A stretch of 21,761 nt of DNA, from IMG/VR virus record IMGVR_UViG_3300031787_000950, positions 1-21,761 of that record, one strand, 5' to 3'. This DNA is from a virus. The notes under the pieces are model-generated. The model was given only the letters and a program-made list of their open reading frames with translations, had not been told where the DNA came from and did not search any database. Shown here piece by piece: positions 9,739-12,981 of this stretch (its first letter is position 1; each line of letters begins with the position of its first letter). The translations under genes were made by a program, and so were the position numbers.

Positions 9739-10821
9739 ATGAAAACAATTCTCTTCATCCTGTTTATGGCTGTCACAGTCACGGCATTTCCACAACTTAC
9801 CGCAAACGATGTCGGACTTCCTCAGGATGTATTCGACACCTACAAGAATTTAGTGTTCACTCAGGAATACACACCTGAAGCACTCGAACTGACAAAGCTC
9901 GAAACCAAACGCACAGTCAATGGGGTGACCACTACAACGAAGGAAGTCGTACTTCGCCCCGTGCCTCGATCATCTGCCAAGACAGTTCAGGCAGGTGTCT
10001 ATGGTCTGAACCTTATTGCCAACTTTGTGCATGAGTTCGGTTACGAGCAGATTACGCAAACCGATTCCGGTTATGTGTTTACAGACACCGGAGACGGAAT
10101 GAGGTTCAATGTTTGGACAAAGTCAGGAAAGTATTATTCTCAGTTACTTTGGCCGGATTATGGTTTCAGACTTACCGATCCGTACACAAGGCAGTCACGT
10201 TACTATTCAGAAGCTGAACTTATGACGATGAAATTCTTTCCGCGTGGTTCACGAACTGCCAGGACAATCACACGATCTGAACTTGCTGCATTCTCAGCAC
10301 GTTATCGTATCGGTTCAGCAGTCAATCCTCAGACCCATGTAACAAGCCTATTTGCAACCATTGACAGGATCAGCAATAATCAGTACAGGGGAAATGTTTA
10401 CATAAATGGAAACCTCGTTACATCGAGCGCGACACTACCACTGGTTACATCATACGGCACGACAGGCATCAGGGTTGGTGCGATCAGGTGGCGATTCCTC
10501 AATGGGTGCGTTCCGAATGACGGCGGGCAGATGACAACGCAGAATGTCATGGGTGCATTGTACTACGAATATGGCAACTTCGGAACGTGCGATGGCGCGT
10601 CATTCGGAACGGTTGATAGCAACACACTCACGACAACAATCGAGGCGGGAACTTCGTTTGATTACGACCCTGTGAATGATATTGTCACCTACAACGGAAG
10701 TAAGAACATGGCCGTGTGGTTTAGTTTTGAAACTCAGTTGGCCAATGGAAAGAACGAAGGCGGGGATGGATATTGGAGCGTGACGGAAAATAGACGGGCA
10801 ATATCGCTCGGTGACTTGTAA
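9739..10821 (+). CDS. Secreted protein of unknown function (moron candidate)
   Basis: ATG directly abuts the protease stop. The 360-aa product starts with a classic Sec signal peptide (Lys, then ILFILFMAVTVTAF, cleavage probably near residue 16-19). The mature part is mostly beta and rich in Thr, Tyr, Gly and Asn, with no cysteine pair near the N-terminus and no lipobox. I recognise no catalytic motif. A Sec-targeted protein is out of place inside a capsid operon. It may be a lysogenic-conversion or surface-modifying factor, or a host-derived moron. A strong terminator follows 50 nt downstream, which cuts this transcript off from the head genes. Confidence 0.75.
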   Translation: MKTILFILFMAVTVTAFPQLTANDVGLPQDVFDTYKNLVFTQEYTPEALELTKLETKRTVNGVTTTTKEVVLRPVPRSSAKTVQAGVYGLNLIANFVHEFGYEQITQTDSGYVFTDTGDGMRFNVWTKSGKYYSQLLWPDYGFRLTDPYTRQSRYYSEAELMTMKFFPRGSRTARTITRSELAAFSARYRIGSAVNPQTHVTSLFATIDRISNNQYRGNVYINGNLVTSSATLPLVTSYGTTGIRVGAIRWRFLNGCVPNDGGQMTTQNVMGALYYEYGNFGTCDGASFGTVDSNTLTTTIEAGTSFDYDPVNDIVTYNGSKNMAVWFSFETQLANGKNEGGDGYWSVTENRRAISLGDL

Positions 10822-10870: not shown

Positions 10871-10896
10871 AGCCCCTCAAACGTGAGGGGTTTTTT
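10871..10896 (+). terminator. Rho-independent terminator
   Basis: CCCCTC (10873-10878), a 6-nt loop and GAGGGG (10885-10890) are followed by T6. A short A-run precedes the stem, so it can also act on minus-strand transcripts arriving from the glycosyltransferase/cassette side. Confidence 0.85.
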
Positions 10897-10953
10897 CATC
10901 CATATCCACCCCAATCGGGCGTACTTGTGCAGGTTTGTCATCCATAGCCAATA

Positions 10954-11464
10954 GTTATGGGAAATTTTAAAAACCTTTTCCCACCGCACAGTTAATCCTC
11001 GTCAACAAATCCGTCAAGAGTTTGTCTAAAGTTTGCGATTTTGCCGTTTTCGTCAATGTCCATAATGATATAATCACCGTAACCGCTTTCTTTTGGACAC
11101 ATCATTTTTGGTACATAATCCTGTTCAATTGATAAAATGGTATTGCCTTCTGCATCTTGCAAATAATAACTACCTGCATCGCAAACTTTATAATGTACTT
11201 CGGCTTTTACACCTTGTTTCCAATTGGTAATTACACCGCTATCAATATCAATAATCGGACACCACAATTCACCCTGCTTACAAGGTATTAAATCGCCTTC
11301 GGTATCTTCCACGCCATTAACGGTTGCATCTTCGTAATAGCGTACACCTGCTTTTACTACTAAAGTTTTCAATTCAACTTCTTTTTCAATTTTTACTGTT
11401 GCTTTCATTTTTAATTTGTTCTTTAAATACCCACCCTAAAAGGTTTTTAAAACTATCCCATAAC
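10954..11464. repeat. Cassette 1 complementary ends (24 paired bases)
   Basis: GTTATGGGA at 10954-10962 is the reverse complement of TCCCATAAC at 11456-11464. After a 2-nt/3-nt mismatch, TTTTAAAAACCTTTT (10965-10979) is the exact reverse complement of AAAAGGTTTTTAAAA (11438-11452). The pair encloses the 138-aa minus-strand gene. Confidence 0.9.
10992..11408 (-). CDS. Cassette 1 hypothetical protein (138 aa)
   Basis: The protein is acidic and beta-rich. It starts MKATVKIEKEVELKTL and contains DGDL-like acidic turns (EDTEGDLIPC), a WCPIIDIDSG segment and a GYGDYIIMDIDENG segment. It has four cysteines and no signal or membrane segment. I do not recognise the family with certainty; it has the look of small widespread cassette- or phage-borne proteins. 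It sits alone inside complementary cassette ends, start codon 48 nt from one end and stop 12 nt from the inner stem at the other. Its strand is opposite to the phage structural genes and its AT content is higher, supporting transfer. No Bacteroidota promoter consensus was found directly upstream. Confidence 0.75.
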   Translation of the reverse strand: MKATVKIEKEVELKTLVVKAGVRYYEDATVNGVEDTEGDLIPCKQGELWCPIIDIDSGVITNWKQGVKAEVHYKVCDAGSYYLQDAEGNTILSIEQDYVPKMMCPKESGYGDYIIMDIDENGKIANFRQTLDGFVDED

Positions 11465-11553
11465 ACGGGTTTGGCAAAATGCCGCAGGACAGTTAGTGCT
11501 AAAATTTAAGTTTCGAGTAGCGGCACTTCGCCAAGCCCGATAACGTTAGTAGC
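11456..11553. other. attC-like recombination hairpin A
   Basis: The order is TCCCATAAC, one unpaired base, then CGGGTTTGGC (11466-11475) pairing with GCCAAGCCCG (11530-11539) with a single T-G wobble. A 4/4-nt internal loop, then TGCCGC (11480-11485) pairing with GCGGCA (11520-11525), and a 34-nt terminal loop follow. A 5-nt spacer (11540-11544) leads to GTTAGTAGC. Length (about 98 nt), AAC/GTT outer ends and unpaired asymmetric spacers match integron attC sites (R'', L'', variable terminal structure, L', R'). Confidence 0.6.
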
Positions 11554-11611
11554 AAGCGGGCGGACGTGCTTCGATTGAAGTTTAGTGCTGAAAATCCCGC
11601 CAGCTACTAAC
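11545..11611. other. Gene-less mini-cassette 2
   Basis: GTTAGTAGC (11545-11553) pairs with GCTACTAAC (11603-11611). After a 2-nt mismatch, GCGGG (11556-11560) pairs with CCCGC (11596-11600). Only 35 nt lie inside, with no ORF. It has the same plan as the gene-bearing cassettes and looks like an empty or deleted cassette, or a small structured RNA. Confidence 0.6.
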
Positions 11612-11705
11612 ACGGGTTTTGTGCAATTTGCCCTATAAACTTTCTGCTATAATTTGAACATTTGTGCAAGGGCAAACTGACACAAAGCCCGAAAGCGTTA
11701 GCTGC
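11603..11705. other. attC-like recombination hairpin B
   Basis: GCTACTAAC, one unpaired base, then CGGGTTTTGTG (11613-11623) pairing with CACAAAGCCCG (11681-11691) with one T-G wobble at the same place as in hairpin A. An internal loop (3/4 nt), TTTGCCC (11627-11633) pairing with GGGCAAA (11670-11676), and a 36-nt loop follow. A 5-nt spacer (11692-11696) leads to GTTAGCTGC. Outer arms differ from hairpin A yet remain complementary, so structure is conserved over sequence. Confidence 0.6.
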
Positions 11706-12019
11706 CATGCCGTTGGACACCCTGCAACATATCAATCAACATTAGTAATTGCCACATTTTATCAATCTTGATTTCTTGAAATTCAGTTCCTTGAACTATT
11801 TCAACTGTTGTGCTTTCATACTTGTATGTATCAGGTGCTTCAACGAACTTGAAACTATCAGTAATATGAATTTCAAGGTCGCCTACAATCTTCTTTTTGT
11901 ATGTGGCAATTTTCAGACTATAATATTCATCTGTTGCAAAGTCTTTATCATAATAAACTTTACATTCAAAGCCGTATTTATCTTCCAAATGAGTGGACAC
12001 GATAGGCACAGCAGCTAAC
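11697..12019. repeat. Cassette 3 complementary ends
   Basis: GTTAGCTGC (11697-11705) pairs with GCAGCTAAC (12011-12019). After a 2-nt mismatch, TGCC (11708-11711) pairs with GGCA (12005-12008), the same plan as cassettes 1 and 2. The right end falls inside the start region of the 120-aa gene, and no attC-like hairpin follows it. Confidence 0.65.
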
Positions 12020-12060
12020 AAGGTATCGGCAAAAAAGCCGTTTTGTTCTTCGTTTGACAT
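11698..12060 (-). CDS. Cassette 3 hypothetical protein (120 aa)
   Basis: The protein is acidic, alpha/beta and cytosolic, with a YYDKDFATDEYYSLKI segment and a C-terminal helix (MWQLLMLIDMLQG). I recognise no family. ATG 12060 lies 17 nt after the glycosyltransferase stop in an A-rich context, so co-transcription with that gene is likely. The stop codon TAA (11700-11698) is formed by the cassette end itself, as is common in integron cassettes. The other cassette end (12011-12019) lies at codons 14-17, so the first 14 or so codons may come from flanking phage DNA. An alternative cassette-internal start is GTG at 12009. The gene could thus be an in-frame fusion created by insertion. Confidence 0.65.
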   Translation of the reverse strand: MSNEEQNGFFADTLLAAVPIVSTHLEDKYGFECKVYYDKDFATDEYYSLKIATYKKKIVGDLEIHITDSFKFVEAPDTYKYESTTVEIVQGTEFQEIKIDKMWQLLMLIDMLQGVQRHGS

Positions 12061-12077
12061 TTGTATTAAGTTTTAAG

Positions 12078-12947
12078 TTACTCCGCCATTTTGGATTCAA
12101 GAAAGGACAATATCAACCGCCTTTCGTCGTCGCTAAGATAGTCGATAATCTTGTGCGCCTTGTACGGCTCGCACTTATTCTCAAGTATCGAATACGACCA
12201 GATATTCTTATCCGACTTGAAGTCGATCAGGTATATCTCTTCGTCATCCAAATCAAGTGCAACGGGCGCAAATCCATTGACCACAAGAAACAGTTCACTG
12301 GCATGATCCAGTCCTGACTTCTTATCATTCGGCCAAAGTCCTGTAAATCCCTGACCAATACACTCACGGGCGTAACCGTATCCTTTCAGATAGGCCGCAC
12401 AATCGGCAGGGAAGCTGTACTGCGTGCCTTTGTACATACACTGCCCAGGCAATCCTTCGCGGCTGATCTCCACTATCTCACGAACGCAAACCTGTTTGAT
12501 CGCACGGCGCGAGATCATCCGGCCAGCTCCGATTAGTTTATTCTCATGGCGGTTGGTATGGATCATCGCACGGCCTGTTGACAGTTCATAGTAACAGTTC
12601 CGGCGGAATCCCACATAGTCAAGGTGGCTGTGCCTGTAAAGTTTCATCGCCCCATTATCAGTCAGCACATCATCGTCACCCATGATGATAAAGTGGGTGA
12701 AGTTGTCAGGGTGTTCATAGGCGGCTTTGAGGACAGCGTTCCACTTTTCGCCAGGACGATTCTGTTCGAGCGTCACAATATCGATCACGTTTGGATCGGA
12801 TGATAGAGTCATGTAGTCGCCTCCTTCTTTTTCGGTGTATGCGGCAATGACCGGAACACCCAATCTACGAGCGCAAAGGAGTAACAACTCACTGACGCGG
12901 GGGCGACCGTTCAAACAGGTCACTATGCAGGGGTTGAATGTGTTCAT
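12078..12947 (-). CDS. Glycosyltransferase, GT-A fold
   Basis: ATG 12947 is chosen because the longer frame back to 12977 runs through the promoter. The 289-aa protein begins NTFNPCIVTCLNGRP (first strand, nucleotide-binding loop) and has PGEKWNAVLKAAYE. A DxD-type metal/nucleotide motif in IIMGDDDVL follows (Asp91-93). GAGRMISRRAI lies later, at the usual acceptor-side position. The glycosyltransferase-2-like class is well supported; donor and acceptor are unknown. In phages such enzymes modify host surface glycans, blocking superinfection, or decorate virion or DNA. It runs opposite to the structural genes, has its own promoter, and reads toward the bidirectional terminator at 10871, all typical of a moron. 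Confidence 0.75.
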   Translation of the reverse strand: MNTFNPCIVTCLNGRPRVSELLLLCARRLGVPVIAAYTEKEGGDYMTLSSDPNVIDIVTLEQNRPGEKWNAVLKAAYEHPDNFTHFIIMGDDDVLTDNGAMKLYRHSHLDYVGFRRNCYYELSTGRAMIHTNRHENKLIGAGRMISRRAIKQVCVREIVEISREGLPGQCMYKGTQYSFPADCAAYLKGYGYARECIGQGFTGLWPNDKKSGLDHASELFLVVNGFAPVALDLDDEEIYLIDFKSDKNIWSYSILENKCEPYKAHKIIDYLSDDERRLILSFLESKMAE

Positions 12948-12951
12948 GAGG

Positions 12952-12981
12952 CAAATGTATAAAGAAAAGTTTACCACGCAA
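12952..12981 (-). promoter_or_regulatory. Bacteroidota-type promoter for the glycosyltransferase
   Basis: On the minus strand TTG (12981-12979), 19 nt, then TACATTTG (12959-12952) match the TTG-N19-TAnnTTTG consensus exactly. Only four bases separate the -7 box from ATG 12947, so the transcript would be leaderless or nearly so. Confidence 0.75.

Follow-up and report, generated by a model that had tools for sequence, protein, structure and literature searches.

An integrase-less cassette array in a Bacteroidota phage and its counterparts in other phages and Bacteroidia chromosomes

Can a phage hold integron-type gene cassettes when it encodes nothing that would move them? This question is raised by a virus record of 21,761 bases, analyzed here over its full length and referred to as the window, in which portal, tape-measure and endolysin genes were identified. 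Between two of its backbone genes (9739-10821, plus strand, and 12078-12977, minus strand) lies a block of about 1.1 kb with a lower G+C content. A preliminary description, made without database searches, had read this block as an integron-like array of attC-like hairpins with no integrase in view. The absence was confirmed: no recombinase was found in the window, its sister records or the complete genomes of mymlan6-1, hattifnatt9-1 and P12002L, and it is from this that action in trans is inferred. The window likewise gave no match to the IntI profile TIGR02249 or to Rfam, and no tRNA.

Three cassettes and their sites

The block had been divided into three adjacent segments with complementary ends, and all three are present as claimed: 10954-10979 pairs with 11439-11464 in segment 1 (9 bp, a 3-nt mismatch and 15 bp), 11545-11560 with 11596-11611 in segment 2, and 11697-11711 with 12005-12019 in segment 3. 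The two junction hairpins (11456-11553 and 11603-11705) also held up, as shuffled versions folded better in only 0-1 of 200 cases (z -2.9 to -4.5), and the spacer asymmetry of 1 nt and 5 nt is identical in both. The full motif, TAAC-1-arm...arm-5-GTTA, occurs at two sites in the window compared to a mean of 0.02 in shuffled windows. Covariance searches used the model R1, built from 37 integrase-adjacent sites of other phages with the window excluded (its E-values are rough). R1 found exactly the two reported hairpins in the window and nothing else, which gives two attC-type sites without an integrase; a CALIN is defined by two or more such sites under the IntegronFinder model, and the count here rests on R1.

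Beside the first cassette lies a constant, attI-like flank (10898..10954, plus strand) that ends in G, with the crossover between 10954 and 10955. It adjoins different last cassettes in three related records (L125, L129, L132) and is missing from three empty-site relatives (L130, L131, L133). A possible 22-codon ORF (MDDKPAQVRPIGVDMDEKTPHV; window 10881-10950, minus strand) is conserved in L125, L129 and L132 across this flank.

Cassette 1 (TT...G; 10955..11545, plus strand) contains an antisense gene and ends in attC1; its limits follow from the complementary ends GTTATGGGA/TCCCATAAC and the positions of the GTTA cores. The ORF of 138 aa (10992..11408, minus strand) is of unknown function and has relatives in 17 phage contigs, with 99% identity in two that also carry sites (L353 and L354). 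The attC1 site, TAAC-A-hairpin-ATAAC-GTTA (11461..11548, plus strand; R1 match 11453-11556, 62 bits, E 1.2e-12), is identical at 85 of 88 nt to a site in the integrase-bearing phage L207, which shows that such cassettes do encounter an integrase. Cassette 2 (11546..11697, plus strand) consists of a leader and attC2 (11608..11700, plus strand; R1 match 11600-11708, 51 bits, E 4.1e-10) without any ORF. Its leader matches that of intact cassettes in L053, L060 and L082 and, judged by this match, cassette 2 is a gene-less remnant. An attC2-type site with 80% identity occurs in Flavobacterium phages.

Cassette 3 (11698..12077, plus strand) has an antisense gene and a decayed terminal site. Its ORF of 120 aa (11698..12060, minus strand) has its N-terminus in common with other genes in L374-L391, the first approximately 20 residues being encoded by attC sequence. 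The half site attC3 (12016..12080, plus strand), which R1 did not match, retains R'', L' and R'; only this right half is left because the L'' arm, present in L370-L372, is deleted. The G|TTA of attC3 overlaps the stop codon of the flanking backbone gene. The R boxes in the window read GTTATGG, GTTAGTA and GTTAGCT, and neither Pfam nor PHROGs provided a function for the two window cassette ORFs.

Covariation, exchange and relocation

R1 also matched sites of Flavobacterium phages and of L125, L129 and L132, and gave no match in the empty-site relatives. A stringent site pattern was met in 99 viral stretches and 22 genome stretches. Over 228 distinct arm pairs, stem pairing is kept despite varied bases, and the unpaired position 14 (A opposite C) is conserved. 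Among the 37 integrase-adjacent sites, double changes occur in 14 of 15 stem pairs, and 91.5% of the cells are paired versus about 30% when slid. Since these sites were pre-selected for pairing over the first ten arm positions, the strongest independent support comes from the pairing beyond them and from strand geometry. Cassette ends pair with their own partner at 5.6 of 8 positions compared to 2.8 when swapped.

The proposed match to attC architecture holds in one respect and fails in another. Complementary R and L boxes that fold into a hairpin with paired arms are present, and the integron reading stands; the site is not a canonical attC. In canonical attC sites, the L boxes are flanked on either side by spacers of much the same length, about 5-6 nt, whereas those found here measure 1 nt and 5 nt, by far the commonest class of the family (361 of 541 sites). 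The GTTRRRY/RYYYAAC core is also lacking: apart from GTTA/TAAC, a condition of the search itself, the core varies and shows no RRRY pattern.

Other records with the same flanking genes were found, one of them a sister 99.6% identical to the window. At the window locus, the cassette of L125 is a different one, whose gene resembles cytosine methyltransferases; L129 has an N6-methyltransferase-like cassette together with a short ORF, and L132 an MT-A70-like cassette with a second gene (functions read from motifs by eye), while L130, L131 and L133 have no cassettes. In related phages with other cassettes, the breaks fall on the TAAC/GTTA boundaries. The preliminary description had named two outcomes that would refute it: no other genomic copies with covarying arms and swapped genes, or empty-site relatives whose junctions miss the GTT/AAC boundaries. 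Hundreds of copies with both properties were found. One edge of the empty sites coincides precisely with G|TTATCAC; at the other edge a further 56 nt of flank are missing, so that insertion and later deletion cannot be distinguished there. Both tests favored the integron reading of the array, which is thereby supported.

Virulent Flavobacterium phages with complete genomes (Muminvirus and Lillamyvirus) carry arrays of this kind. Comparison of near-identical isolates revealed the precise loss of a 506-nt cassette in mumin6-3 and of a 342-nt cassette in snork6-2. A 439-nt cassette is located at the array end beside a backbone gene in lillamy9-7 and elsewhere in lillamy9-2; cutting the lillamy9-2 cassette at GTTA and pasting it in silico yielded lillamy9-7 over 5,678 bases with no mismatch. 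Relocation and losses place the crossover at G|TT, with the hairpin travelling with its cassette, the exact base being unresolved within the shared GTTAT. As the hairpin moves with the cassette whose TAAC end precedes it, the orientation is fixed as G|TT - antisense gene - TAAC - 1 nt - hairpin - 5 nt - G|TT, which rests heavily on one clear relocation event. The lillamy relocation ruled out an array read in gene orientation, with the crossover on the opposite side of the hairpin.

Homologous recombination between similar hairpins might produce such patterns without any site-specific recombination, given that hairpin types recur among cassettes and that phages are mosaic. However, only a core of 5-7 nt is shared at the precise events, the lillamy9-7 cassette moved to a target site that has no hairpin, and the integrases adjacent to arrays would remain unexplained. 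We therefore regard this explanation as extremely unlikely.

Integrases beside arrays in phages and chromosomes

A search for integrases near further hits, as the preliminary description had proposed, found them beside arrays in related phages. A tyrosine recombinase is encoded in 7 of 47 array-carrying phage records and adjoins the array in six of the seven. Where enough upstream sequence was available, 47 of 57 phage integrase loci had an array directly upstream in divergent orientation. Around these 57 loci, 213 sites lie upstream on the opposite strand, versus 6, 5 and 4 in the other strand and side classes, which is the shuffled level. This divergent geometry is that of intI and its cassettes. 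The IMG/VR classification of the records was checked only in part; all six records larger than 240 kb, among 20 records tested, have a large terminase, which indicates that the larger array carriers are real phages. A tyrosine recombinase (PF00589, E 1e-37) is also encoded by the ORF of one phage cassette.

The phage integrases scored 176-206 bits against XerA_Arch (cut-off 220) and 141-168 bits, in two pieces, against IntI TIGR02249 (cut-off 265). The solved XerC-like protein 4a8e was the top match of their profile, followed by IntI4. The alignment skips about 42 residues of the region specific to IntI, residues 181-242 of IntI4 corresponding to 20 profile positions, and the phage integrases thus do not possess the additional domain specific to IntI. 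In the tree they cluster together (95/95), separate from the IntI and Xer groups (each with support of 100); deeper nodes are poorly supported, and long-branch artefacts are possible. According to Smyshlyaev et al., the IntI insertion is not fully conserved in an integron-like subgroup (PMC8138268), so that some array integrases may already belong to that subgroup with their arrays unrecognized.

R1 sites occurred in at least 181 of 295 genomes from the class of Aquirufa (Bacteroidia) and in none of 142 genomes of a comparison class, excluding the centre genome, which had been chosen for holding the pattern. These counts are lower bounds, as a limited number of candidates was scored per genome. 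Chromosomal arrays extend up to 57 kb; the 57-kb array, with an integrase, in a bacterial genome (G314:C2:2090-64514; L305-L308, L338) is of superintegron size. Thirteen homologous integrases were examined in ten genomes, and all ten of those away from a contig edge have sites at the expected upstream end; three of these ten informative loci are divergent, and seven are co-oriented with the array. A first scan with a strict-arm motif had suggested bacterial 390-aa homologues without arrays, a result overturned by R1. The position of an integrase beside the array at the attI end hence holds for the family, in phages as in bacteria, and not in the window. A contig of a MAG labelled Neisseriaceae (G377:C53; L108) has two sites; with none in the 142 other genomes of its class, it may be misbinned. 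A Kapaibacterium MAG (G019:C101; L135, L200) encodes a true IntI (350 bits) with no R1 site nearby.

Two other recombinases may be considered in place of the adjacent family. Host recombinases of the XerC/XerD type, which resolve dimers and are exploited by some phages, could act on the hairpins, with the adjacent integrases being incidental. In line with this, the completely sequenced virulent phages that bear arrays encode no recombinase themselves, and the array-adjacent integrases are relatives of Xer. For incidental genes, however, neither the concentration of sites in one strand and side class (213 versus 4-6) around one integrase family in phages nor an integrase at the array end in bacteria would be expected, and we find this proposal hardly credible. 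Alternatively, the sites may be ordinary attC sites acquired from bacterial integrons and handled by canonical IntI, as in some other phages. Phage attC clusters without integrase do exist, some of which work with IntI1 (PMC9892861). Against this speak the 1/5 spacers and a GTTA rather than GTTRRRY core, the lack of R1 matches beside the true IntI in L200 and throughout the comparison genomes, and the separate clades of array-adjacent integrases and IntI. Nor did R1 match phage P12002L, whose sites are of another kind and one of whose two tested sites was accepted by IntI1 (PMC9892861). We consider canonical IntI as the agent very unlikely.

Cargo, proposed mechanism and known systems

Cassette genes in phages point toward the integrase (84:0, and 155:6 in another set, composed of phage and contig loci). 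The canonical orientation, with genes that read away from attI, is absent from the first phage set (84 antisense, 0 sense), whereas bacterial arrays show it (61:6 away from the integrase), as canonical integrons do. Few of 112 phage cassette proteins, the two window ORFs included, had a Pfam match, and those that did were mostly DNA-modifying: N6/N4 methylases (9), EcoRI-type (2), a C5 methylase, Mom and a TET-associated glycosyltransferase. Bacteria, in the one array examined (L318:11060-18199), carry defence genes in the array system: cassettes next to each other hold two candidate defence families, PDC-S02 and HEC-05, and a restriction-modification pair. Phages, in turn, appear to swap anti-restriction genes through it. 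Nilsson et al. reported that LMO9 phages plating 10^3-10^4 worse on LMO6 lack a specific methyltransferase of the efficient platers (PMC7077304); the methyltransferase genes that we saw in those Flavobacterium phages lie in the array region, the gene meant by these authors not being identified.

In one attC type, the site itself supplies a start codon and an N-terminal peptide (MSNEEQNGFFAKPVL..., MSNEEQNGFFA.PVL), to which numerous unrelated genes are fused in frame, among them one that resembles cytosine methyltransferases (L370-L372, L374-L391; window 12010-12060). Just downstream of the sites, cassettes with different genes have long leaders in common (e.g. GTTATATGAAGTGCCGACT..., with the ATG about 70 nt away; L019, L032, L036, L059, L077, L088 and others), which suggests a module for making cassettes. 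This bears on the open question of cassette origin, as the same attC-plus-leader module, even the attC-encoded peptide, is joined to many unrelated genes.

Taken together, the window very probably carries an outpost, without an integrase, of a system through which Bacteroidota and their phages exchange genes in the manner of integrons, with cassettes moved in trans. To the integron reading this adds that cassette genes are antisense and that an integrase family particular to the system is encoded by other phages and by host chromosomes. The sequences themselves establish that the sites exist and covary, that cassettes are swapped, precisely lost and relocated at G|TTA, that integrases lie beside arrays and how the genes are oriented. 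Folding of a single strand as substrate (in canonical integrons it is the bottom strand that recombines), a circular intermediate, action in trans and the counter-defence role are inferred. Each cassette comprises G|TT, a gene on the opposite strand, a leader, TAAC, 1 nt, the hairpin, 5 nt and G|TT. A XerA/IntI-like tyrosine recombinase would recognize the folded hairpin as one DNA strand, cassettes would be excised as circles by crossover at G|TTA, and the circles inserted at the attI-like site at the upstream end of the array. As the window phage apparently lacks its own recombinase, an integrase supplied by the host or by a large co-infecting phage would act in trans, and the DNA-modifying cargo would let phages exchange protection against host restriction. 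Against this stand the unassayed activity of the integrase family, its lack of the insert held necessary for IntI activity (PMC9668308) and the single clear relocation event.

More broadly, it is likely that XerA-like integrases without the IntI domain, together with their own attC type, form a second integron lineage common in Bacteroidia chromosomes, with a phage branch of inverted cassette genes, the same kind of platform serving defence in bacteria and counter-defence in phages. Bacteroidota are generally regarded as poor in integrons; IntegronFinder 2.0 reported Bacteroidota with In0 elements and one complete integron, in Salinibacter (PMC9024848). No published description of these phage and Bacteroidia arrays was found in the open-access literature (subscription papers and preprints were outside the scope), and the system, with reversed genes in Bacteroidota phages and present in most sampled Bacteroidia chromosomes, has apparently gone unrecognized so far. 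If the result stands, standard tools miss it there because they require the IntI domain and canonical attC, and phages have a dedicated platform for gene capture. Isolated phage-host pairs (Flavobacterium LMO6/LMO9) render the system directly testable.

Like canonical integrons, the arrays have paired R/L boxes in a hairpin, crossover at G|TT, multiple cassettes, an integrase at the attI end and complementary ends that imply cassette circles. They differ in an integrase without the IntI insert, whose IntI profile score stays under the cut-off, in spacers and core, and in phage cassette genes that point toward the integrase. The integrase-less clusters of Qi et al. 2023, some working with IntI1, resemble the window array in their occurrence in virulent phages and their methyltransferase cargo, while theirs are canonical attC; the section of that study consulted describes neither a dedicated phage integrase family nor systematic antisense cargo (PMC9892861). 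In Treponema-type integrons (PMC3607928), the integrase is transcribed toward the array, as in seven of the ten Bacteroidota integrase loci, yet Treponema has a true IntI, and in the phages it is the cassette genes that are reversed, beside a divergent integrase. XerA and the simple tyrosine recombinases (PMC8138268; PDB 4a8e, 5hxy) are the best sequence matches of the phage integrases, but XerA resolves chromosome dimers at dif, whereas the phage integrases adjoin arrays of hairpin cassettes.
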